A stretch of 56,431 bases of DNA. Source: a virus. This document shows positions 19,102 to 43,035 of this stretch, in pieces. Location: positions 1-56,431 of the IMG/VR virus record IMGVR_UViG_3300030102_003788; one strand, given 5' to 3'. Positions within the stretch are counted from its first letter, which is position 1. Every line of letters begins with the position of its first letter. The notes under the pieces are model-generated. The model saw only the letters and a program-made list of their open reading frames with translations, was not told the origin of the DNA and did no database searches. The translations under genes and the position numbers were made by a program.

Positions 19102-19860
19102 TTACAGAAAGTCAAGCACTTGCGAGTGATCTACGTTTTCTATTAATTTGTCTACAGCTTGCTTTTTTAGCTGTGAAACACGTACATAAGCACTGCTGCC
19201 TTCTATACCTAAATGCTTAGCTATTTTAGCAGCTGATTGTTTATCACAATCAAGACCATAACTCATTCTTAATACTTCATATTCTTTCATCGTTAAATGT
19301 TGTTTTAGCAAAGATGTTAAATATGCATTCATCATCTCTATGTTGTATGGTTCTGTTTCGTCAGGTATTTCATAAACAGAGTTATCATCTTGATTTAAAT
19401 CAGAATCAATACTTAAAAATATACTGTTAAAAAACATAGCAACAGTCTTTTTATCTTTGCCAAAGCTTTTTCTTATTTCGTTAAGTTTATGTTCTGGTAT
19501 TCTTATGCTACCTCTATTTATATCTATACCTCTGCGTATAGCACCTTTAATACGTTTTGAAAAGAAAGACTTTAATGTTTTTTCTTGATCATCAGACTCT
19601 AATAATCTTTCCATATCTAATCTTTGCACAGCTTTTACTAAGCCAAAGCTACCTTCTTGTATTAAGTCTAATATACTCATAACGCCACTAGCCTGTTGTG
19701 ATGTTGCAAACTTTCTAGCTATGTTTTCTACTAAAGGTAAAAATTTTATTTCTAATTCTTTTTTTGTATATTCATGCCATTGTTTTTTAGGCAGTCGTTT
19801 AACTGATTTTTCTACATCATTTTTGTATCTAATATAGTTTTGTATATTATAATATTTCAT
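19102..19860 (-). CDS. Phage-encoded sigma-70 family factor
   Basis: The product has 252 residues. Region 2 is visible: LVENIARKFA, then ILDLIQEGSFGLVKAVQRLD (the core-binding 2.2 helix), then SFFSKRIKGAIRRGIDINRG. Region 3 begins SIRIPEHKLNEIRK. Region 4 has LTMKEYEVLRMSYGLD and an HTH with SAAKIAKHLGIEGSSAYVRVSQLKKQA. It resembles a primary-type sigma without region 1. A phage sigma would redirect host RNA polymerase; the nine-copy motif in this window is its most obvious candidate target. It overlaps the HTH gene by 4 bases. Confidence 0.88.
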   Translation of the reverse strand: MKYYNIQNYIRYKNDVEKSVKRLPKKQWHEYTKKELEIKFLPLVENIARKFATSQQASGVMSILDLIQEGSFGLVKAVQRLDMERLLESDDQEKTLKSFFSKRIKGAIRRGIDINRGSIRIPEHKLNEIRKSFGKDKKTVAMFFNSIFLSIDSDLNQDDNSVYEIPDETEPYNIEMMNAYLTSLLKQHLTMKEYEVLRMSYGLDCDKQSAAKIAKHLGIEGSSAYVRVSQLKKQAVDKLIENVDHSQVLDFL

Positions 19861-20477
19861 AGTTGTTTATTTAATAATTCTTTTTCTCTTTTTAGTTGTT
19901 CACACATATTTCTATGTATAGTTCTGCTTGCACATTTTAATAGTTTAGCTAATTTTGCTATAGTAATTTTTTCATTGTTGTTATTTATTTCTAGCATACA
20001 ACTATAAATGTCATCTTCAGTAATACGTTTACTTCTACCTATTAGTTCACCTACAATACGTAATTTTTCTTCTTTACTAATTAATGTGTTAGGTTTAAAT
20101 ATAACTTTACGTAATTTATTTTTAGGTGGTTCATCTAAATCTAACATGCTAACTTCATATACTATTTTACGTAATAACTCATCATGTATAGCAAAGCTAA
20201 TAAAATTATTTGACTTATTACATATAATTTCAGCTAATTTTATAAACATGTCTTGATCAAGTTTAGGATTTAAATACCACAAAACTAATAAATGCCATTT
20301 TAATGATTTATATGTAGTTATTTTTGCTTTACTTCTAAATAATTCATAACACTCATGTGTACCATTTAAATAAAACATATACACTTCATTATCTATATCT
20401 GGTATATCATTTATTGGGTGTCTACGGTAAACGATGCGATTATCATTTAAGTATTTTAAGTTTCTGTTTTGTGACAT
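19857..20477 (-). CDS. Putative DNA-binding regulator with C-terminal helix-turn-helix
   Basis: The product has 206 residues. The first ~130 are not recognised (MSQNRNLKYL, then YMFYLNGTHECYELFRSK and SLKWHLLVLWYL). The end looks like a helix-turn-helix: ITIAKLAKLLKCASRTIHRNM preceded by ITEDDIYSCML and a second helical element RIVGELIGRSKRIT. It overlaps the sigma factor by 4 bases, so the two are probably co-expressed. Its start codon lies inside one arm of the GTGACA inverted repeat, which suggests autoregulation. The call is based on the HTH pattern and context. Confidence 0.6.
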   Translation of the reverse strand: MSQNRNLKYLNDNRIVYRRHPINDIPDIDNEVYMFYLNGTHECYELFRSKAKITTYKSLKWHLLVLWYLNPKLDQDMFIKLAEIICNKSNNFISFAIHDELLRKIVYEVSMLDLDEPPKNKLRKVIFKPNTLISKEEKLRIVGELIGRSKRITEDDIYSCMLEINNNNEKITIAKLAKLLKCASRTIHRNMCEQLKREKELLNKQL

Positions 20478-20514
20478 TAGCCTATTACTCTTTATATTTA
20501 GGGGCTGTTGTCAC
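20471..20514. promoter_or_regulatory. Inverted repeat GTGACA-N3-GCC ... GGC-N3-TGTCAC over the HTH gene start (site A)
   Basis: The left arm is GTGACATTAGCC (20471-20482), the right arm GGCTGTTGTCAC (20503-20514), the spacer 20 bases. The HTH gene ATG is inside the left arm. It could be a DNA operator spanning about three helical turns, or an RNA hairpin sequestering the start codon. A second copy is at 26002-26047. Confidence 0.6.
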
Positions 20515-20628
20515 AGTCCCCTCTGGTTTTAATGTTTTTAAAATAATTATTGTTCTATCAGTATAATCAATGTTACCATATTTTTTATCATTCCATTGTT
20601 TTATTCTATTTATTAGGTCTTTGCTCAT
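20485..20628 (-). CDS. Small hypothetical protein
   Basis: The frame encodes 47 residues (MSKDLINRIKQWNDKKYG..., IIILKTLKPEG, ending APKYKE). It overlaps the 3' end of the 20606-21091 gene by 23 bases and stops 7 bases before the HTH gene. The last part of the frame carries one arm of inverted repeat A. There is no recognisable domain; the compact operon packing is the main support. Confidence 0.5.
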   Translation of the reverse strand: MSKDLINRIKQWNDKKYGNIDYTDRTIIILKTLKPEGTVTTAPKYKE

Positions 20629-21091
20629 ATATTTTTTCGGTTTTAGGGTTTGCTACTATGTGTTTTTCGCCTATATAATAATTCCAATAAGCTTGTATAC
20701 TACATTCATCTTTATATTTATCTGGCATAGCTTGTGGTGGTTGACACCAATCATCACCTTGAATATGTCTAGGTGGTATAGCTAAAAAGTCTTTACATTT
20801 AGTTATGCTTAAATGTGTTTTACCATATCGTTTTGTATACTCATTACCTAAAGCCATCATATGATTGTATAACCACATGTATGTAGACTTTGAACGTCTA
20901 GTCCATACTGTTGACGGATGGTTTAAATGAGCTTGTTTGTACGGTACATTTTCTACTTGATATTTATCACCATAACAATGATGAGCTGTACATAACATCT
21001 GAGCTGACTCCAGTATCATTTTAACTACATGTTTATTGTATTGTACTTGTGCTGCTTTTACAGGGCATTTATCTAAATAAAATATATTCAT
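20606..21091 (-). CDS. Conserved phage protein (MNIFYLD...KHVVKMILESAQ family), function unknown
   Basis: The product has 161 residues. The start MNIFYLDKCPVKAAQ and the motif NKHVVKMILESAQMLCTAHH are strongly conserved in proteins from many marine phages, as are HLNHPSTVWTR and YMWLYNHMMALGNEY. Repeated His and Trp residues hint at a metal or nucleic-acid site. I know no established function. The ATG overlaps the upstream small gene in an ATGA. Confidence 0.65.
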   Translation of the reverse strand: MNIFYLDKCPVKAAQVQYNKHVVKMILESAQMLCTAHHCYGDKYQVENVPYKQAHLNHPSTVWTRRSKSTYMWLYNHMMALGNEYTKRYGKTHLSITKCKDFLAIPPRHIQGDDWCQPPQAMPDKYKDECSIQAYWNYYIGEKHIVANPKTEKIYEQRPNK

Positions 21092-21192
21092 AATTGTTGT
21101 TTAGCCATTTTTTCTAATATCTTTACTAGTTTAGTTAAAGCTTTAGTTAAGTCGCTAATGTCCTTATACATTTGTTGTTGATTTCTATTCAT
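21088..21192 (-). CDS. 34-residue coiled-coil peptide
   Basis: The short frame (MNRNQQQMYKD followed by ISDLTKALTKLVKILEKMAK) reads as one amphipathic helix with a heptad pattern. It overlaps the ligase 3' end by 8 bases and its TGA overlaps the next ATG, so both junctions look like coupled translation. No homology can be argued at this length. Confidence 0.45.
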   Translation of the reverse strand: MNRNQQQMYKDISDLTKALTKLVKILEKMAKQQL

Positions 21193-22021
21193 AATCTCTA
21201 ATACATTTAAATAATGGGTGTCTGTAGCTATTTGCTTTTGTACGTTCGAAGTATGTAAACGTAGCTATTTTACCTACATAACCTTGCATTTTTTTGAAGT
21301 TGTCTTGTAAATACTTGAACTTATTCATAACAGGCATGCCGAATAAATTACCATCTTCATCTTGTGCCATAAACTTACCGATAGTACCTTTACGCTTACC
21401 AACGCCTTCAACCCAGCCAACAATAAGAGCTTCGGCATCACTGAAGTCTTTGAACTTACGTAAGTTATGCGAACGTTTACAAGCGTATGTATCATTAGTA
21501 CGTAATATAGAGCCTTCGTAGCCGTTATCTAAGTTTCTTCTGTGATATACTTTAGCATCATCATCTCTAAATATTAGATTAGTTGGCACGTGTTTAATAC
21601 AGTGATTACGTGGTACAGCCTGCTCAATAAAAGCATTACGTTCTTCAAACGTTTTAGTTTCATCAATTATATCATAACAATGAAATTGTACCATATCGGC
21701 TGATTCTAGCATGTCTATATCATCTGGTTTTTGTTTTCTGACTAAAGATATTATCTTTTCAAAATTGTCTTTTAAATCGTGATTATACAGTTCGCCGTCA
21801 AGTATAACATCAGGATTAAGAGCAAACCAAGGTTTAAGATTAAATAGTATATGGTCAATATTTTTCCACTCTTTACCTGTGCGTGAGTATGCGGTTACCT
21901 TGCTATTGTCATATTGTATAAGGCATCTAACACCATCAAGTTTTGGCTGCATAAATACTTTATCATCATAATTAATTGGTTTGTCGCTTACTGGATAAGC
22001 TAGCATTGGTTTTTTTCTCAT
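21185..22021 (-). CDS. ATP-dependent DNA ligase
   Basis: The product has 278 residues, a minimal ligase without extra domains. The adenylation motif QPKLDGVRC at about residues 26-34 has the nucleophilic Lys. Other nucleotidyltransferase motifs are DGELYNHDL (III), YEGSILRTND (IV) and LRKFKDF (V). A C-terminal OB-like domain follows (FGMPVMNKFKYL, VGKIATFTYFE). It seals nicks during replication and recombination. It overlaps the genes on both sides. Confidence 0.92.
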   Translation of the reverse strand: MRKKPMLAYPVSDKPINYDDKVFMQPKLDGVRCLIQYDNSKVTAYSRTGKEWKNIDHILFNLKPWFALNPDVILDGELYNHDLKDNFEKIISLVRKQKPDDIDMLESADMVQFHCYDIIDETKTFEERNAFIEQAVPRNHCIKHVPTNLIFRDDDAKVYHRRNLDNGYEGSILRTNDTYACKRSHNLRKFKDFSDAEALIVGWVEGVGKRKGTIGKFMAQDEDGNLFGMPVMNKFKYLQDNFKKMQGYVGKIATFTYFERTKANSYRHPLFKCIRDYE

Positions 22022-22362
22022 TTGTTATGTTTTTTTAGTATTTTATTTATTATGTCCATTCGTTGTTTTATAATAGCACATTTTTCATATGACTCATCTT
22101 CTTTAAATAAGTTCATAAGTGTCATAAGCTTTGCAGCTTCACCTAAAGCTTCTTCTTCTTCGGTTAGCTCAAGATCTTCATAAGCCGTGGACCAAGCTAT
22201 GTCAGACTTGGCCACGTGGTGAAACCAGTCTTCCATAGACTTAAGTTTTACCATACGACTTACGATCTTGATTGCCAATGTGTTAAGACCTTCTTCACCA
22301 ACTTTAAGGTCATTTATTTTGTCTAATATTTGTTTGTTTGTTACACGTTTATTATCCGTCAT
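22018..22362 (-). CDS. Helical hypothetical protein with a UVR-like motif
   Basis: The product is 114 residues, nearly all helical and acidic in the middle (LELTEEEEALGEAAKL). The end (DESYEKCAIIKQRMDIINKI) resembles the UVR motif of UvrB/UvrC and related proteins, a two-helix protein-interaction element. The start codon lies inside a copy of the AAATACGA-N8-GGATAAT motif (MTDNK is encoded by its right half). Transcripts from that motif would therefore start inside this gene and serve the ligase instead. Confidence 0.55.
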   Translation of the reverse strand: MTDNKRVTNKQILDKINDLKVGEEGLNTLAIKIVSRMVKLKSMEDWFHHVAKSDIAWSTAYEDLELTEEEEALGEAAKLMTLMNLFKEDESYEKCAIIKQRMDIINKILKKHNK

Positions 22363-22381
22363 TGTTCGTATTTTGTTTGTA
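22351..22381 (-). promoter_or_regulatory. Promoter-like motif copy 2
   Basis: On the minus strand it reads ATACAAACA, AAATACGA, 8 nt, GGATAAT. It overlaps the end of the 22352-22723 gene (NTNNDG codons) and the first codons of the next one. Confidence 0.6.
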
Positions 22382-22723
22382 TTTTTTAATAAGTTGTTGT
22401 GGTGTACCTACAAAGATACATTTATCTGATTTAGTTAAGTCTTCATTATATGTTTCATGAAATATACTAATCCACGTATCTTTCATTGGGTGTTGCCAAA
22501 CGTAGTATACGTACTCTAAATCGCTGTGTTTAGCTGTTAATGTTTCTATTTCCCAACCGTTTATTTTTTTGTATTTAGTAAGTGAATTAGCTATATCTAT
22601 ACCTAGTCCTTCTGGATAACCATCCCAGTGGCAATAAAACTGTGCGTTTATTACTCTTGGGTGGTCATTAAATGATACACCAGCTTCTCTTGTTGCAAAT
22701 CTAATCTGTGCTCTTGTAGCCAT
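22352..22723 (-). CDS. Conserved hypothetical protein (ATRAQIRF...HWDGYPEGLG family)
   Basis: The product has 123 residues. MATRAQIRFATREAG and FYCHWDGYPEGLGIDIANSL define a small family seen in phages and bacteria whose role I do not know. VYYVWQHPMKDTWISIFHE continues the aromatic-rich core. The C-terminus QNTNNDG is encoded by the regulatory motif and nearly repeats the end of the 15209-15490 gene, though the proteins are unrelated. It overlaps the upstream gene by 23 bases. Confidence 0.6.
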   Translation of the reverse strand: MATRAQIRFATREAGVSFNDHPRVINAQFYCHWDGYPEGLGIDIANSLTKYKKINGWEIETLTAKHSDLEYVYYVWQHPMKDTWISIFHETYNEDLTKSDKCIFVGTPQQLIKKYKQNTNNDG

Positions 22724-22991
22724 AATATTTTGATTTTAATTGTTCAATAATTGCTCTACCTGTTCTTGTATGAAAACCATAGCTATGTGTAAACATACCT
22801 TTAATTGGGTCGTTAAAGAATAACAACCTCATATAGTCTAATGGTTCAGCTGCTTTTGCAAAGTCAGTATCAGCATACTCACTTGCCATGTCATTACACG
22901 CAGCAGCGATAGCCTTAGGACAATGTATAAAGTCGTCTGACGTTCTATAAGACATATAGTCTCGTACTTTTTTACTCGTTAGTTTTTTCAT
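22701..22991 (-). CDS. Hypothetical protein
   Basis: The product has 96 residues: MKKLTSKKVRDYMSYRTSDD, then IHCPKAIAAACNDMASEYAD, and RLLFFNDPIKGMFTHSYGFH. It is a mixed alpha protein with two cysteines and no recognised motif. It overlaps both neighbours by about 20 bases, in the run of small leftward genes that share motif-type promoters. Confidence 0.5.
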   Translation of the reverse strand: MKKLTSKKVRDYMSYRTSDDFIHCPKAIAAACNDMASEYADTDFAKAAEPLDYMRLLFFNDPIKGMFTHSYGFHTRTGRAIIEQLKSKYYGYKSTD

Positions 22992-23316
22992 CTTGTATTA
23001 TTTTAAATTGTTTTGCAATATTCATTGTTATAGCTTCTGATATATCATAAGAATCAGTAAAAGTTAACTCGCTGAGTTCTAACTTGTTATCGTAGTCAAT
23101 ATTAAATTCATAATCAAACATACCACAGTCAAACTGATAATCTTCTAACGCTGAGTTTACCGCTTGGTCAATTACTTCTAATGTAGTGTTAGATATAACT
23201 GGTTTGTTAACATCTTCTAGCTCTCGTTGTTTGTCTTTTAGTTCCATATTAAGACTACTTATTTTATCTTGCAAGCCTTTTACTGTAGCTTCTAACAGTT
23301 CTTTTGTTTCTGACAT
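22972..23316 (-). CDS. Hypothetical protein with N-terminal coiled coil
   Basis: The product has 114 residues. Residues 1-40 form a strong heptad coil (ELLEATVKGLQDKISSLNME, KDKQRELED). The rest is acidic with FDCGMFDYEFNIDYDNKLEL, possibly a small beta domain. A promoter-like motif copy ends 23 bases upstream of its ATG. Function unknown. Confidence 0.5.
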   Translation of the reverse strand: MSETKELLEATVKGLQDKISSLNMELKDKQRELEDVNKPVISNTTLEVIDQAVNSALEDYQFDCGMFDYEFNIDYDNKLELSELTFTDSYDISEAITMNIAKQFKIIQDEKTNE

Positions 23317-23447
23317 TTTATTTTATTTTTGTTATTATTATTATCCGACTTTATTCGTATTTGTTTTGTAATTTGTTTTTGTTCGTATAACTCTATGTTT
23401 CTTAATAGTTTTTCGTCTTGTCCTAATCTTCTTTTAAATAATCTCAT
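23292..23447 (-). CDS. Possible small basic protein reading through a promoter-like motif
   Basis: The frame encodes 51 residues (MRLFKRRLGQDEKLLRN followed by IELYEQKQIT, then a Lys/Asn-rich tail). Its ATG overlaps the stop of the 23444-23794 gene in an ATGA, which supports translation. Its second half lies over motif copy 3 and runs 25 bases into the next gene, so the low-complexity C-terminus is likely not constrained as protein. It may be a short real gene or a chance frame. Confidence 0.35.
   Translation of the reverse strand: MRLFKRRLGQDEKLLRNIELYEQKQITKQIRIKSDNNNNKNKIKCQKQKNC
23340..23371 (-). promoter_or_regulatory. Promoter-like motif copy 3
   Basis: On the minus strand it reads TTACAAAAC, AAATACGA, 8 nt, GGATAATAAT, 23 bases before the 23316 start. 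Confidence 0.65.
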
Positions 23448-23794
23448 TGTAATTCATTTGCTTGTTTAATATAATAGTTTTTAAGACAATAGCGTATTAA
23501 ATATTCTAATCTGTCTTGTTCTCTTGGTATTAGTATACGCTCTTTAGTATCAAACTCATGTACTTTACCATTTCCATATTGATAATAGCGTTTACTCATT
23601 TTAGTTTTGTTTAGTTGATAATTACTGTAGCCACAATTATTATTTCTAACATAACCTGACTTGAATGAAGCAACTTCGATAAACTTACCCCACCTTTTGA
23701 TTGGTAATTTCCAAGTGACTGTACCATTTTTCTTTTGTCTTGGCGTTGTAACATCTTGAATACCAAGTAGTTGTATTGTTTCTTTTATATTCAT
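23444..23794 (-). CDS. Hypothetical protein
   Basis: The product has 116 residues and is basic: WKLPIKRWGKFIEVASFKSG, then NNNCGYSNYQLNKTKMSKRY and a C-terminal helix (REQDRLEYLIRYCLKNYY). No family is recognised. It lies between two small genes of the leftward accessory run, 1 base downstream of the 23796-23960 stop. Confidence 0.5.
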   Translation of the reverse strand: MNIKETIQLLGIQDVTTPRQKKNGTVTWKLPIKRWGKFIEVASFKSGYVRNNNCGYSNYQLNKTKMSKRYYQYGNGKVHEFDTKERILIPREQDRLEYLIRYCLKNYYIKQANELQ

Positions 23795-23795
23795 A

Positions 23796-23960
23796 TTATT
23801 CTGTTATTATTTCATTATTATCATGTATCATCCACTCGCAGTTTGATAGTCTGTGACCTTCTTCTGTTAAATACTTTTCGTAGTCAGTATCTGAAAAGTC
23901 CCACACTTTATATTGGTAAACTCTACCTGTTTCAAAATTTAGCACTGTTATATATTTCAT
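23796..23960 (-). CDS. Small hypothetical protein
   Basis: The frame encodes 54 residues (MKYITVLNFETGRVYQYKVW, then CEWMIHDNNEIITE). The beta-like first half and the helical DTDYEKYLTEEGHR read as a real compact fold. Motif copy 4 ends 6 bases before its ATG, as at thyA. There is no known family. Confidence 0.5.
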   Translation of the reverse strand: MKYITVLNFETGRVYQYKVWDFSDTDYEKYLTEEGHRLSNCEWMIHDNNEIITE

Positions 23961-23966
23961 ATTGTT

Positions 23967-23997
23967 ATTATCTATTAGTGTTCGTATTTATTTTGTT
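23967..23997 (-). promoter_or_regulatory. Promoter-like motif copy 4 (weaker)
   Basis: On the minus strand it reads TAACAAAAT, AAATACGA, 8 nt, AGATAAT, the only copy with A in place of the first G. It lies directly 3' of the tRNA-like element. Confidence 0.55.
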
Positions 23998-23998
23998 A

Positions 23999-24056
23999 TG
24001 GTGTATAAGTGCCGTTCGAAGCGGGCGCCTTACAGCTCTTACTAGTACACTTATAC
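23999..24056 (-). ncRNA. tRNA-like element with CCA end but no room for an anticodon arm
   Basis: A perfect 9-bp stem (GTATAAGTG at the 5' end, CACTTATAC at the 3' end on the minus strand) is followed by A-CCA, exactly as in a tRNA acceptor stem. Inside are a D-arm-like AGTAAGAGC and a T-loop-like CTTCGAA. The whole element is 58 nt, about 18 short of a tRNA, and I cannot find an anticodon stem. It may be a degraded tRNA, a truncated tRNA mimic or a chance hairpin. It starts on the last base of the upstream gene's stop codon. Confidence 0.4.
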
Positions 24057-24268
24057 TAACCTAACATTGTACCATAACCTCTACGCTGAGTCAATTTAGC
24101 GATACGCGCAGCGTCACTGCTTGACATAATCTGTATGGAATTACCGGTTTTGTGGTTGATTAGTGGTGCGCAACCGTATGCTTCGGTCGTGGAGCAGTTT
24201 ACGCACACTTTGTAACCTAAATCGACTCTGCCTTGAGGTATTATATTATTGCATTTTACACACTTCAT
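24056..24268 (-). CDS. Small zinc-finger protein (CxxC...CxxC)
   Basis: The product has 70 residues. CVKCNNIIPQGR and YKVCVNCSTTEAYGC form a four-Cys zinc site similar to TraR/DksA-like fingers in spacing. AYGCAPLINHKTGNSIQIMS followed by RRGYGTML looks strongly conserved, and I recall similar small phage proteins. The role is not established. Its stop codon abuts the tRNA-like element. Confidence 0.65.
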   Translation of the reverse strand: MKCVKCNNIIPQGRVDLGYKVCVNCSTTEAYGCAPLINHKTGNSIQIMSSSDAARIAKLTQRRGYGTMLG

Positions 24269-24269
24269 A

Positions 24270-24446
24270 TTATTCAGCTATATAAGTTAGACCTTTATAG
24301 TTAAACCAGCTAGTAACTTCATCTGTGCCAAATTTAGTATCAGCAAGAGAGCAAATGGTATATGGTTTGTAGGTAATACCATTTAGTTGGATTTTTTGTA
24401 AGCCAGTAGTTATGTTTGGTTTTAAGAATTTAATTGTGTTTTGCAT
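24270..24446 (-). CDS. Small hypothetical protein
   Basis: The frame encodes 58 residues (MQNTIKFLKPNITTG, then LNGITYKPYTICSLADTKFG and VTSWFNYKGLTYIAE). Its residue mix is that of a folded small protein. It follows motif copy 5 with a 30-base leader and ends one base before the zinc-finger gene. Confidence 0.5.
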   Translation of the reverse strand: MQNTIKFLKPNITTGLQKIQLNGITYKPYTICSLADTKFGTDEVTSWFNYKGLTYIAE

Positions 24447-24476
24447 AGTATATAATTTTATTTGTTTAACATTTAT

Positions 24477-24508
24477 ATTATCCGACTCGCGTCGTATTTA
24501 GTTTGTAA
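24477..24508 (-). promoter_or_regulatory. Promoter-like motif copy 5
   Basis: On the minus strand it reads TTACAAACT, AAATACGA, 8 nt, GGATAATAT. The 8-nt spacer creates a CGAC-N4-GTCG palindrome. It sits directly after the stop of the 24509-24775 gene. Confidence 0.65.
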
Positions 24509-24775
24509 TTAGTCTATCTCGTCACAGTTCTCGCACCAAGAATCTATTGGTTGAGGTAACATACTTAACAATAAATTTACATAGTAATTACCTTTATTGT
24601 GAGTTATGTAGCCATAGTACATATCATATTGTATGTCTTCTATTAAGTTTAGTATTTGAAACTTTAACTCAGCTCTTTCTCTTTTGTCTACTGATACTTT
24701 TGTAGTATCACCTGTGTTTGCATAAGTTGTACACGCTAGTAGCATAGTAGCTACACATAATTTAATTTTCTTCAT
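24509..24775 (-). CDS. Small exported protein
   Basis: The 88-residue product has a signal peptide (MKKIKLCVATMLLACTTYAN). The mature ~68 residues are helical (LKFQILNLIEDIQYDMYYGY) and end in a CENCDE motif whose CxxC may form a disulphide in the periplasm. It is another exported protein in the early arm. No family is recognised. Confidence 0.55.
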   Translation of the reverse strand: MKKIKLCVATMLLACTTYANTGDTTKVSVDKRERAELKFQILNLIEDIQYDMYYGYITHNKGNYYVNLLLSMLPQPIDSWCENCDEID

Positions 24776-24792
24776 ATTATTTTATTTAATTA

Positions 24793-25041
24793 TTAATCTA
24801 AACTTGGTTCTATACCATTTTCTTTGTCTATTTCTATACAGTTAGCAATAGCGTCAGCTAGTAAATCTTGTGATTTTTGACTATTAAACCAGTCTTCTTT
24901 TTCCCACACATAGTAAATCCAGTCATTTGCTTTGTCTGCTGTTTCAAAGTAATTATCATACTCATTGCCATAACTATCAGTTACTTTTGCGTGGTATAAC
25001 TCACCTTGTCTTCTTGTTATGCTAAAATTTCTTTTTGTCAT
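24793..25041 (-). CDS. Hypothetical protein
   Basis: The product has 82 residues. FSITRRQGELYHAKVTDSYG begins a beta-hairpin-like domain, and DKANDWIYYVWEKEDWF a Trp-rich helix. It lies 22 bases downstream of motif copy 6. Nothing indicates function. Confidence 0.5.
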   Translation of the reverse strand: MTKRNFSITRRQGELYHAKVTDSYGNEYDNYFETADKANDWIYYVWEKEDWFNSQKSQDLLADAIANCIEIDKENGIEPSLD

Positions 25042-25063
25042 ATTATATATTATTTACATTATT

Positions 25064-25094
25064 ATTATCCGACTATTGTCGTATTTACATTGTA
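25064..25094 (-). promoter_or_regulatory. Promoter-like motif copy 6
   Basis: On the minus strand it reads TACAATGT, AAATACGA, 8 nt, GGATAATAAT, with a CGAC-N4-GTCG palindrome. Confidence 0.65.
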
Positions 25095-25100
25095 TTTGTG

Positions 25101-25208
25101 GTAGTGTGGGACTTGAACCCACTCGATTATTCGGCCGCCTTTCTACCGTACTTGTTCGCATTTTTTATAAGTCGCTAAACAACGTGGAACTACGACTCTG
25201 CCCACTAC
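25101..25208 (-). ncRNA. tRNA-like structured region with a canonical T-arm
   Basis: On the minus strand a perfect 5-bp T-stem with the classic loop (GTGGG TTCAAGT CCCAC, 25106-25122) is followed by ACTAC. A GTAGTG at 25203-25208 can pair with CACTAC at 25101-25106. The enclosed ~100 nt are too long for a normal tRNA, and I could not place a D-arm or an anticodon arm with confidence. It may be a decayed or intron-bearing tRNA or another structured RNA. There is no protein gene from 25042 to 25252. Confidence 0.4.
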
Positions 25209-25252
25209 ACGCTAATCTGTACTTCACGTGTAGTTACTACTGACATGTTTTA

Positions 25253-25498
25253 CTACTCAGTAATTGTTTGTAAATTTCTACAGAAACTTGGTACACAATT
25301 TGAGTTAGTGTATGACTTGTACTTCTGAAAACAGTTCATACTTTCAAATCTTTCTTTGTGAGTATTATATACTTCATCATGATTATATGATACATTTTCT
25401 TGTTTTTTGTTTACAAAAGTTATTATTGTATTTTTACCGATTAATGATTTTCTGATTACAAATCTTTTAGTTGTTAGTGTGTTAGTTAAGTTTGACAT
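25253..25498 (-). CDS. Hypothetical protein
   Basis: The product is 81 residues and basic: MSNLTNTLTTKRFVIRKSL, IGKNTIITFVNKKQENVSYN, and a C-terminal part with three cysteines (NCFQKYKSYTNSNCVPSFC). No family is recognised. Motif copy 7 precedes the gene with a 36-base leader. Confidence 0.5.
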   Translation of the reverse strand: MSNLTNTLTTKRFVIRKSLIGKNTIITFVNKKQENVSYNHDEVYNTHKERFESMNCFQKYKSYTNSNCVPSFCRNLQTITE

Positions 25499-25534
25499 AG
25501 TTTATTTATTTATTTAATTATTATTTACATTTAT

Positions 25535-25566
25535 ATTATCCAGTTGACTTCGTATTTACATTGTAA
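25535..25566 (-). promoter_or_regulatory. Promoter-like motif copy 7
   Basis: On the minus strand it reads TTACAATGT, AAATACGA, 8 nt, GGATAATAT. Confidence 0.65.
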
Positions 25567-25621
25567 AAGTATATTGTTTGTTTATTATATAATTTACTAT
25601 TGTATGTACTGCGCTGCGTTT

Positions 25622-25750
25622 CTATATGTGCGAATTATAAAATTCATTATTTTCTTTTTTAGTTTTGAATTTAAATACTTTTACTATATTACTTTTAGTA
25701 GTTATTATAGTAGTATAGTCAGTTTGCTTAATTGATTTTATTATTGACAT
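25622..25750 (-). CDS. Small hypothetical protein
   Basis: The frame encodes 42 residues (MSIIKSIKQTDYTTIITTKS, then VKVFKFKTKKENNEF). It alternates hydrophobic and basic residues and could be one small beta-hairpin domain. It is the leftward gene closest to the strand switch, 28 bases after motif copy 8, which makes it a likely first-expressed gene. The motif placement is the main support. Confidence 0.45.
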   Translation of the reverse strand: MSIIKSIKQTDYTTIITTKSNIVKVFKFKTKKENNEFYNSHI

Positions 25751-25778
25751 AGTTATTTATTTTATTTATTACATATAT

Positions 25779-25809
25779 ATTATCCAAATGCGTTCGTATT
25801 TACTATGTA
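25779..25809 (-). promoter_or_regulatory. Promoter-like motif copy 8, leftward half of a divergent pair
   Basis: On the minus strand it reads TACATAGT, AAATACGA, 8 nt, GGATAATAT. It faces away from motif copy 9, 50 bases to the right. Confidence 0.7.
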
Positions 25810-25859
25810 GAAAAAAGCTAAAATGTTTTGAGTAAGTGCAATTTGTAATTACAACGAAA

Positions 25860-25890
25860 TACAAAGTAAAAACGAATAAAAATGGATAAT
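25860..25890 (+). promoter_or_regulatory. Promoter-like motif copy 9, the only rightward copy
   Basis: On the plus strand it reads TACAAAGT, AAAAACGA, 8 nt, GGATAATAAT, with the same spacing as the eight leftward copies. It would start transcription toward the 26.1-kb gene cluster. Confidence 0.7.
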
Positions 25891-25894
25891 AATT

Positions 25895-25936
25895 ATGAAA
25901 AACGATGGCGAGCTGGCGTTTACAAGTGCGTTTTAA
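25895..25936 (+). CDS. Possible 13-codon leader peptide
   Basis: The ATG lies 4 bases after motif copy 9 and encodes MKNDGELAFTSAF before a TAA. It is followed directly by the GC-rich block. It may be a leader peptide or a chance frame. Confidence 0.15.
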   Translation: MKNDGELAFTSAF

Positions 25937-25939
25937 GCT

Positions 25940-25967
25940 TAGGGGGGCCGGCCTAGGGGTAGGGGGC
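25940..25967. other. GC-rich block in an AT-rich strand-switch region
   Basis: A G6 run, the palindrome GGCCGGCC, an overlapping CCTAGG, a G4 run and a G5 run occur within about 28 bases. Surrounding DNA is strongly AT-rich. It lies between divergent promoter-like motifs and inverted repeat B. An origin, a structured RNA or a protein site are all possible. Confidence 0.45.
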
Positions 25968-26001
25968 AACACCACGCTCCAATATTTATAATGTTTTTTT
26001 T

Positions 26002-26047
26002 GTGACATAAGCCTATTAATAAACCCTTAGTAACAGGCAAGTGTCAC
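26002..26047. promoter_or_regulatory. Inverted repeat GTGACA-N3-GCC ... GGC-N3-TGTCAC at the strand switch (site B)
   Basis: The left arm is GTGACATAAGCC (26002-26013), the right arm GGCAAGTGTCAC (26036-26047), the spacer 22 bases. The 21 bases at 25998-26018 match 20467-20487 with one mismatch. The site lies 67 bases before the first rightward gene. Confidence 0.6.
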
Positions 26048-26113
26048 ACTTTACTTAAATAAGTATTTATACGTGTGATAATACTGATAAGTAAGTAATT
26101 AAAAAAAACAATT

Positions 26114-40650: not shown

Positions 40651-42150
40651 ATGGCAATTACAGGTGCAACGAATACAGTGCCAGCTCCAATACAGCAAAC
40701 ACTGTCTTCGAATTATATTGATTTTGCTACGCTTGGATCTTCGGACGGATGGGCGCAGCAATACCTGCCTGACTTAATGGAAGCAGAAGCTGAGGTGTTT
40801 GGTAACAGAACTATCTCTGGTTTTCTTTCACAAGTTGGTGCAGAAGAGGCTATGACTGCTGATCAAGTAGTATGGTCTGAACAAGGAAGATTACATTTAT
40901 CTTATACTGGTCACGTTGAAAACACTACACAGTGTGATGATGGTGCTACTGCTGGTGGTCAGATTACTCTTGATAAAACTATTGATGGAGTACAATTAAC
41001 TGCTACAGCTAGAGATAATGGTGTTAGAGTAAATGACATTTTATTAGTAGCTACAGCTACTGCTACTCACAGATTATTAGTTCAAAACGTAGCGCTTAAC
41101 GTAGTTAGTGTTGTTCCTTACGACGCTGGAAACACAAATGGTCAAATAGGTAACTTAACTGGATTAACTGCTACAGGTGCTGATGATGATGGATCTTTAA
41201 CGGTACTAGTTATTGGTTCTGAGTATTCAAAAGGTACTAACGGAAGAGTAGGTACTAATACTCCAGGTTTCAAATCATTTACTAACAAGCCAATTATATT
41301 AAAAGACAAGTATGATATCTCTGGATCTGATGCTTCTCAAATTGGTTGGGTTGAAATATCAGGTGAAGACGGACAAAATGGCTACTACTGGTATTTAAAA
41401 GCTGAAGGAGACACTAGAGCTCGTTTTGCTGATTACTTAGAAATGGCAATGATTGAATCTGTTGTTGGTGACAACGCAAACACTGCAGCTGATGGTTCTG
41501 TTTTAGGAGCAAGTCATACTACTTTTGGTACTGAAGGTTTATTCTCAGCTATTGAAACTAGAGGTAATATAGCTACAGGTATTGAAGGTGTTGATGCTGG
41601 TACTGATTTAGCTGAGTTTGACGCTATTTTAGCTGAGCTTGATTCTCAAGGTGCTATTGAAGAAAACATGCTGTTCTTGAACAGATCTACTAGTTTAGCT
41701 ATAGATGATATGTTAGCTTCAATGAACTCTCATGGTACAGGTGGTACTTCTTACGGTGTATTTGACAACGAAGAAGACATGGCACTTAATTTAGGTTTCT
41801 CTGGTTTCAGAAGAGGTTCTTATGACTTCTATAAGTCTGACTGGAAATACTTAAATGACGCTTCTACAAGAGGTGCTATTAATGCTAAAGATACTGTCAA
41901 TGCTATAAGAGGTTGTATGATACCTGCAGGAGTTTCTTCTGTGTATGATCAAACTTTAGGTAAGAATTTAAAACGTCCATTCTTACACGTTAGATATAGA
42001 GCTTCACAAACTGATGACCGAAGAATGAAAACTTGGGTTACTGGTTCTGTTGGTGCTACTACATCTGAACTAGATGCAATGGAGGTACATTACTTATCTG
42101 AAAGATGTTTAATTGTACAAGGTGCTAACAACTTCTTCTTATTGAAGTAA
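40651..42150 (+). CDS. Major capsid protein
   Basis: The product has 499 residues and is the best candidate by position (after scaffold) and composition: acidic, Gly/Ala/Thr-rich, few Lys. Blocks such as WAQQYLPDLMEAEAEVFGNR near the N-terminus, LEMAMIESVVGDNANTA in the middle and RPFLHVRYRASQTDDRRMKT near the C-terminus fit an HK97-fold protein with a spine helix and P-domain. A strong hairpin terminator follows immediately, as expected for a highly expressed gene. Confidence 0.85.
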   Translation: MAITGATNTVPAPIQQTLSSNYIDFATLGSSDGWAQQYLPDLMEAEAEVFGNRTISGFLSQVGAEEAMTADQVVWSEQGRLHLSYTGHVENTTQCDDGATAGGQITLDKTIDGVQLTATARDNGVRVNDILLVATATATHRLLVQNVALNVVSVVPYDAGNTNGQIGNLTGLTATGADDDGSLTVLVIGSEYSKGTNGRVGTNTPGFKSFTNKPIILKDKYDISGSDASQIGWVEISGEDGQNGYYWYLKAEGDTRARFADYLEMAMIESVVGDNANTAADGSVLGASHTTFGTEGLFSAIETRGNIATGIEGVDAGTDLAEFDAILAELDSQGAIEENMLFLNRSTSLAIDDMLASMNSHGTGGTSYGVFDNEEDMALNLGFSGFRRGSYDFYKSDWKYLNDASTRGAINAKDTVNAIRGCMIPAGVSSVYDQTLGKNLKRPFLHVRYRASQTDDRRMKTWVTGSVGATTSELDAMEVHYLSERCLIVQGANNFFLLK

Positions 42151-42161
42151 GCATTTATATA

Positions 42162-42187
42162 AAAGTCGAGGCTTCGGCCTCGGCTTT
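42162..42187 (+). terminator. Strong terminator with UUCG tetraloop after the capsid gene
   Basis: AAAGTCGAGGC, loop TTCG, GCCTCGGCTTT: an 11-bp stem with one G-T pair and an exceptionally stable cUUCGg loop, followed by TATTTTATT. Partial termination here would raise capsid mRNA over downstream tail mRNA. Confidence 0.88.
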
Positions 42188-42216
42188 ATTTTATTAATTT
42201 TATTATATATTATATT

Positions 42217-43035
42217 ATGGCAAAAAAAGAAAAAACAGAAAAGGTAGAGGTACCTGTTGTTGAAACACCAGTTGTTGAAACACCAAAACCTAAAAAAGTT
42301 GAACCTAAAAAACCTGAATGGGAAATAAAAGACAGAGTTTATTATTTAATAGGTAATAAAAAACCATTATCTTACATGATAAGATCTACTAATATCTATT
42401 ATTTTGACGAAGAAAAAGGTTTTGAAAGAGAATTAAAATATTGTGAAAATCAAAGAACTCCTTTTGTTGACGAAATGAAAGGTGATCAAAGATTATCTCA
42501 CATTGTGTTTAGAAACGGGGTACTACACGTTCCTAGAGAAAAAACAACTTTACAAAAATTTTTAAGTTTATATCACCCACACAAGGATAAACTTTATTAT
42601 GAGTGGAAACCAGTTCAGCAAGCAGAAAAACAATTAGACTGGTTAGAATTTGAAGTTGCTGCTTTACAAGCGGCTAATGATTTAGAAGTTGATATGATGG
42701 AGGCTGTTATGAGAGTAGAAAACGGTTCTAGGGTATCTAGCATGTCATATAAGGAATTAAAGCGTGATTTACTTATATTTGCTAAGAGAAATCCTCAACT
42801 GTTCTTAGAATTAGTTACAGACGATAATATACAACTTAGAAACTTTGGTATAAAAGCTACAGAAGCTGGTATATTATCTTTAACTTCAGATCAAAGAACT
42901 TTTAATTGGGGTTCAACTGGTAGAAAAATAATGACTGTACCTTTTGATGAGCACCCGTATTCAGCTTTAGCCGCTTGGTTTAAAACTGATGAAGGTATGG
43001 AGGTGTACAAGAATATAGAAAAACGAATGAAGTAA
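42217..43035 (+). CDS. Conserved virion-module protein of unknown function
   Basis: The product has 272 residues: a Lys/Pro/Val-rich low-complexity start (VEVPVVETPVVETPKPKK), then DRVYYLIGNKKPLSYMIRST, HIVFRNGVLHVPREKTTLQK, and a helical C-terminal part (YKELKRDLLIFAKRNPQLFL). I recall this family after the capsid gene in marine phages, without a function. An accessory head or head-tail connector role is likely from position. Confidence 0.55.
   Translation: MAKKEKTEKVEVPVVETPVVETPKPKKVEPKKPEWEIKDRVYYLIGNKKPLSYMIRSTNIYYFDEEKGFERELKYCENQRTPFVDEMKGDQRLSHIVFRNGVLHVPREKTTLQKFLSLYHPHKDKLYYEWKPVQQAEKQLDWLEFEVAALQAANDLEVDMMEAVMRVENGSRVSSMSYKELKRDLLIFAKRNPQLFLELVTDDNIQLRNFGIKATEAGILSLTSDQRTFNWGSTGRKIMTVPFDEHPYSALAAWFKTDEGMEVYKNIEKRMK

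Follow-up and report, generated by a model that had tools for sequence, protein, structure and literature searches.

The viral DNA analyzed here (56,431 nt, hereafter the window) consists of two divergent arms, and it raises the question why one long inverted repeat stands at the start of a gene for a predicted helix-turn-helix (HTH) protein in the leftward arm and again, kilobases away, at the strand switch. The original prediction was that an autoregulated protein reads both repeats and also governs the rightward arm, and it allowed for an RNA element formed by the same arms. On sequence grounds we consider it likely that the palindromes are double-stranded DNA operators of a single phage transcription regulator, most likely the HTH protein, and that they constitute an early/late switch.

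Two matched palindromes and their gene surroundings

The pattern GTGACAN3GCC-N(10–30)-GGCN3TGTCAC occurs exactly twice in the window, at the two predicted positions (sites A and B; Table 1), while dinucleotide shuffles of the window contain no copy, and a chance origin was dropped for this reason. The spacer between the arms is 20 nt at site A and 22 nt at site B. As had been noticed before, both sites contain the 21-mer TTTTGTGACATNAGCCTATTA with one differing base. On the − strand, the core of site A reads TGACAACAGCC-N20-GGCTAATGTCA and lies over the ATG (ATGTCAC, position 20477) of the HTH gene, which in turn overlaps the sigma gene. Site B lies between the leftward and the rightward arm, 67 nt upstream of the first rightward ORF. 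These placements agree with what had been predicted. The additional claim that the downstream arm contains an ATG in both sites holds for site A, where this ATG is the start codon. The ATG of site B is found on the − strand only and no conserved ORF starts there, the frame varying from 6 to 105 aa among relatives; a small ORF starting at this ATG was dropped because it is not conserved.

Table 1. Positions of the two palindromes and of neighboring genes and elements in the window.
Feature	Position	Strand	Remarks
Phage sigma-70-like factor	19102..19860	−	4-nt overlap with HTH gene
HTH protein, 206 aa	19857..20477	−	C-terminal HTH (about 150–206) and N-terminal domain; presumed binder of both sites
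Site A, proximal operator (putative)	20471..20514	−	42-bp core 20472–20513; HTH start codon inside
47-aa ORF, unlisted	20485..20628	−	Final codons hold site A upstream arm; ends ...KPEGTVTTAPKYKE
Conserved AT-rich element, TTATAAATATTGG on − strand	25979..25991	−	Adjoins site B on the left; candidate leftward promoter
Site B, distal operator (putative)	26002..26047	+	44-bp core 26003–26046, at strand switch
Putative late-promoter element TGTGATAAT (consensus TGTRANTAT)	26074..26082	+	Starts 28 nt past last TGTCA base of site B
First rightward ORF, 88 aa	26114..26380	+	Downstream of site B

The leftward arm carries genes for replication and nucleotide metabolism (ribonucleotide reductase, primase/helicase, ligase, Erf) together with the HTH–sigma pair, and GroEL, terminase and portal are encoded by the rightward one. 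The phage GroEL (27769–29334) is about 40% identical to GroELs of other phages. Of 55 relatives, 49 have the sigma gene downstream of the HTH gene, and the stretches of the other six break off no more than about 1 kb from the HTH start.

A DNA-binding HTH in this protein family is indicated by both profile and structure. Of 24 family members, 19 are hit by the HTH_11 profile, the best at E 2.5e-6; the window protein alone gives E 0.02, which falls short of the curated cut-off. The structure model of the window protein (mean pLDDT 84.7) has C-terminal helices at residues 154–166, 173–180 and 184–190. The model has no significant fold match in the PDB, and PHROGs profiles gave no significant match to the window protein (best E 0.074) and scattered weak matches to other family members (best 9.6e-5, for one member). 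Homologs in isolated phages were not found by tblastn with three family members as queries. BFVD holds one relative at 32% identity, and the relatives in genome collections lie within metagenome bins, several of them Bacteroidota.

Conservation and coordinated change of the sites

The exact 21-mer was found in 31 viral contigs and in two contexts, namely at the HTH start and in a non-coding place. A loose palindrome search returned at least 119 stretches, and the palindrome is conserved in well over 100 viral contigs. After GC-rich chance matches had been set aside, the core length is almost always 42–44 bp (range 41–45), despite permitted spacers of 14–30 nt. The half-site consensus is TGTGACAWWAGCCNNTTA (about 20 bp). 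The two arms differ internally, as one of them has AGTAA before GGC, and at sites A and B this is the arm nearer the controlled gene.

We read 80 HTH starts that were chosen by protein rather than by site, 78 of which belong to the main clade. All 78 have the palindrome on the start or within about 30 nt upstream of it, and an operator-like site at the regulator's own gene is conserved in the sister clade as well, there with a changed motif. Relatives from genome bins agree with this, as all seven have the site or a degenerate version of it at the HTH start, one of them with the second (sister-clade) motif. In 57 of 65 distinct site A cases, the start codon is placed 6 nt inward from the end of the site, and in the other eight it comes 2–28 nt after the site. 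Since site A is kept where the ATG is displaced, its conservation does not stem from the coding constraint on the start codon; this explanation was dropped for that reason and because site B is intergenic.

We scanned 11 near-complete main-clade genomes with a profile. Site A is present in every one of them, and ten have another site at the strand switch, as does the window; the remaining genome, G081, has no site B at the threshold used. Shuffled genomes gave no palindrome over the lowest threshold in the same scan. Of the site-bearing contigs compared, the 16 that exceed 60 kb all have the HTH gene. Contigs of 20–55 kb that have sites and no HTH match resembled counter-examples; G064, the one checked, ends before the early region. 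Two genomes, G088 (L247, L248) and G092, have two HTH genes per contig with an own site A at each, and one locus (L163:2570–2716) has two tandem palindromes 103 bp apart.

In some relatives, a third palindrome (class C) follows the major-capsid gene, with a terminator-like hairpin on one side and the next gene on the other (L173:8605–8646 and most of L256–L314), its polarity being reversed relative to the downstream gene. Two 66-kb contigs have this third site together with site A and the HTH gene, and a flank-only search, in which only one TGTCA was fixed, recovered the full palindrome in most class C loci. The window has the major-capsid hairpin and no palindrome there. An Rfam search of the window gave no match at sites A and B; its only, weak and unrelated match (frnS, E 0.085) covers 42161–42257 and overlaps the hairpin after ORF 40651–42150, which is probably a terminator.

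The small number of sites per genome and the strand switch, which is often an origin position, would also fit a replication origin, partition or packaging element that is present in two or three copies by happenstance. We regard this as scarcely credible, because one copy stays with the HTH start codon from relative to relative and also at second HTH gene copies, and another class precedes a capsid-region gene directly after the terminator-like hairpin.

The strongest evidence that one protein of the operon reads both sites comes from a sister clade (L098/L099/L100), whose HTH protein is 39–40% identical to that of the main clade. The TGACAN3GCC motif is absent from this clade, and a different palindrome of similar size, GTGTAAANNTAGTAA...TTACTANNTTTACAC, is located 12–13 nt before the HTH ATG. 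In G105 (54.5 kb), the only sister-clade contig that spans both places, the half-site GTGTAAANNTAGTAA has four matches only, and these make up two palindromes, the first 13 bp upstream of the HTH start, the second at the strand switch. The same second motif is present in L385, a partial relative that was found independently in a genome bin. Both sites have changed along with the HTH–sigma operon. The site-to-site covariation expected for a shared reader is seen in this pair of new motifs, and arm symmetry accompanies the HTH gene at all 78 main-clade starts and in the sister clade.

Next, we turn to the form in which the sites are read. The arms are able to pair, and site B as well as the plus strand of site A fold with z-scores of about −3 to −4, which would be compatible with an RNA hairpin acting as translational operator or leader element. 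However, 14 of 520 arm pairs deviate in the 65 distinct site A sequences, and none of the 14 shows Watson–Crick compensation (seven mismatches, seven G-U). Pairing of the N3 triplets in sites A and B is likewise not above shuffled expectation. On the strand of the HTH mRNA, the best fold of site A leaves the arms unpaired, and on the rightward strand, site B has no ATG in its arm. Moreover, a promoter-like element downstream of site B would place the site outside that rightward transcript. We therefore rejected the RNA element on folding and missing compensation, and consider it very improbable. The missing compensation between arms, combined with the coordinated change in the sister clade, supports DNA operators that are read by a protein of the HTH–sigma operon, and the predicted autoregulated protein with control over the rightward arm gains sequence support from the 78 of 78 starts and both sister-clade sites.

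The co-variation does not by itself name the reader, as the sigma gene neighbors the HTH gene in practically every relative and operon co-variation cannot separate the two. The sites might thus be recognized by the sigma factor of the operon or by a protein of the host, and the outer TGTGA/TCACA, which resembles CRP-type half-sites, speaks in favor of such a reader. Yet a long dyad is not the kind of pattern that a sigma factor recognizes, the changed sister-clade motif would remain unexplained with a host factor as reader, and it is specifically the HTH start that site A occupies. Reading by the sigma factor or a host protein is accordingly improbable. As both genes co-vary, we infer the binder of sites A and B, which is most likely the HTH protein.

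Flanks of site B and the proposed switch

Downstream of site B, the element TGTRANTAT is present within 90 nt at 30 of 64 sites, compared with 0.6 in shuffles and with 1 of 68 A sites. It mostly starts 22–27 nt after site B and faces the structural genes. The consensus was read by eye from the very set in which it was counted and is thus a lead, not proof; single 6-mer counts in the site B flank do not exceed the shuffle maximum. If TGTRANTAT were a −10 element, the center of site B would lie near −62, an activator position. On the opposite side, an AT-rich TAAATATTGG-like element is enriched 6–20 nt from the site B edge in relatives, and if this element were a leftward promoter, site B would cover its −35.

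The surroundings of site B show further features. The window is AT-rich, and a GC-rich tract at 25940–25980 (GGGGGGCCGGCCTAGGGGTAGGGGG) adjoins site B; a CCCCCTA run recurs in relatives at a similar distance from the site. A 56-nt repeat family (TAAATACGA-N8-GGATAATA on the − strand) has eight copies between 15186 and 25812, before leftward genes. The repeats look like a set of early promoters distinct from TGTRANTAT.

In the mechanism that we propose, two half-sites of about 20 bp, inverted around the 42–44 bp core, would be occupied by a dimer or a higher oligomer of the HTH protein. Site A is located midway in the leftward early operon, and binding there would damp transcription of the regulator's own gene and of the downstream sigma gene, either by autorepression or as a road-block. 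At site B, the protein would stand beside the TGTRANTAT element, about 60 bp ahead of where rightward late transcription starts, and would cover the −35 region of the putative leftward promoter. Occupancy of site B would then activate the late arm and shut off the early side. Late activation is suggested by the location of site B about 25 bp upstream of the promoter-like element, and early shut-off by analogy to phi29 p4. The oligomeric state of the binder and the sign of regulation at each site are what we infer from this arrangement.

Site A lies over the start codon and cannot activate the HTH gene from there. Negative feedback is thus the simpler reading there, and sites A and B either act differently or both repress. 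In the latter case, the HTH protein would be purely a repressor at both sites and keep the late arm silent along with its own gene, and late genes would come on when it is titrated, e.g., by phage DNA replication. The overlap of site A with the start codon is indeed a repressor position, sites A and B share their polarity relative to the gene that each precedes, and the B sites of L163 are in tandem. Site B is usually located wholly upstream of the promoter-like element (22–27 nt offset), however, which is more typical of activators, and we hold pure repression to be rather unlikely.

Several observations speak against the HTH protein as a dual regulator at sites A and B. The core length varies by 1–3 bp, which is unusual for a rigid dimer, and the sigma factor, encoded in the same operon, would co-vary too. 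In addition, class C sites have the opposite polarity, and G081 is without a B site at the threshold used. More tentatively, the HTH protein might represent an undescribed family of switch proteins with exceptionally long dyad operators, which would road-block the early operon from its own start codon and turn the junction from early to late, the operator being replaceable wholesale while the two-site layout is kept.

Comparison with known systems

The kind of switch is already known, and the regulator family and its operator matched no characterized one. A literature search on regulation in these phages yielded nothing specific, and the early/late switch of this phage group is undescribed in the sources searched. 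With a candidate regulator and its sites named, the circuit becomes testable for widespread, uncultured Bacteroidota-type marine phages. The sister clade, in which both operators have changed, offers a natural experiment on the co-evolution of a regulator and its scattered operators, and it could serve to map HTH specificity residues.

The terminase relatives are flavobacterial podophages (45–64% identity). The related podophages Flavobacterium Elemovirus and Caudoviricetes sp. MW202828 share with the window a terminase in this identity range, divergent arms and GroEL. In contrast to the window, MW202828 and Elemovirus elemoA are without the TGACAN3GCC palindrome. A search for HTH homologs found none in the former phage, and its sole result in the latter was a match of 14 bits.

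Autoregulated phage repressors such as lambda Cro/CI are likewise HTH proteins with dyad operators at their own gene and at a divergent control region. Their operators measure about 17 bp, whereas those of the window measure 42–44 bp, and the window protein has no Cro/CI-type HTH match. P2 Ogr and P4 Delta are zinc-finger late activators that bind TGT-N12-ACA sites. They resemble the proposed regulator as phage activators whose dyad lies about 55 bp before late promoters, but the window protein showed no sequence relation to them in profile searches.

The phi29 protein p4 is an early protein that binds inverted repeats between early and late promoters, represses A2b/A2c and activates the late promoter A3, and its sites, which are located upstream of the late promoter, overlap the early −35 elements (PMC3100819). 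p4 has an N-hook fold, binds CTTTTT-15-AAAATG, uses p6 and has its four sites in one region, whereas the window protein contains an HTH and one of its putative sites lies on the regulator's own start codon, kilobases away from the other. p4 is not among the PDB sequence or fold matches of the HTH protein, which gave no sign of a p4-type fold. Both systems nevertheless share the placement of a site between early and late promoters at a strand switch, as found, with putative promoters, in 10 of 11 main-clade genomes, in G105 and in the window.
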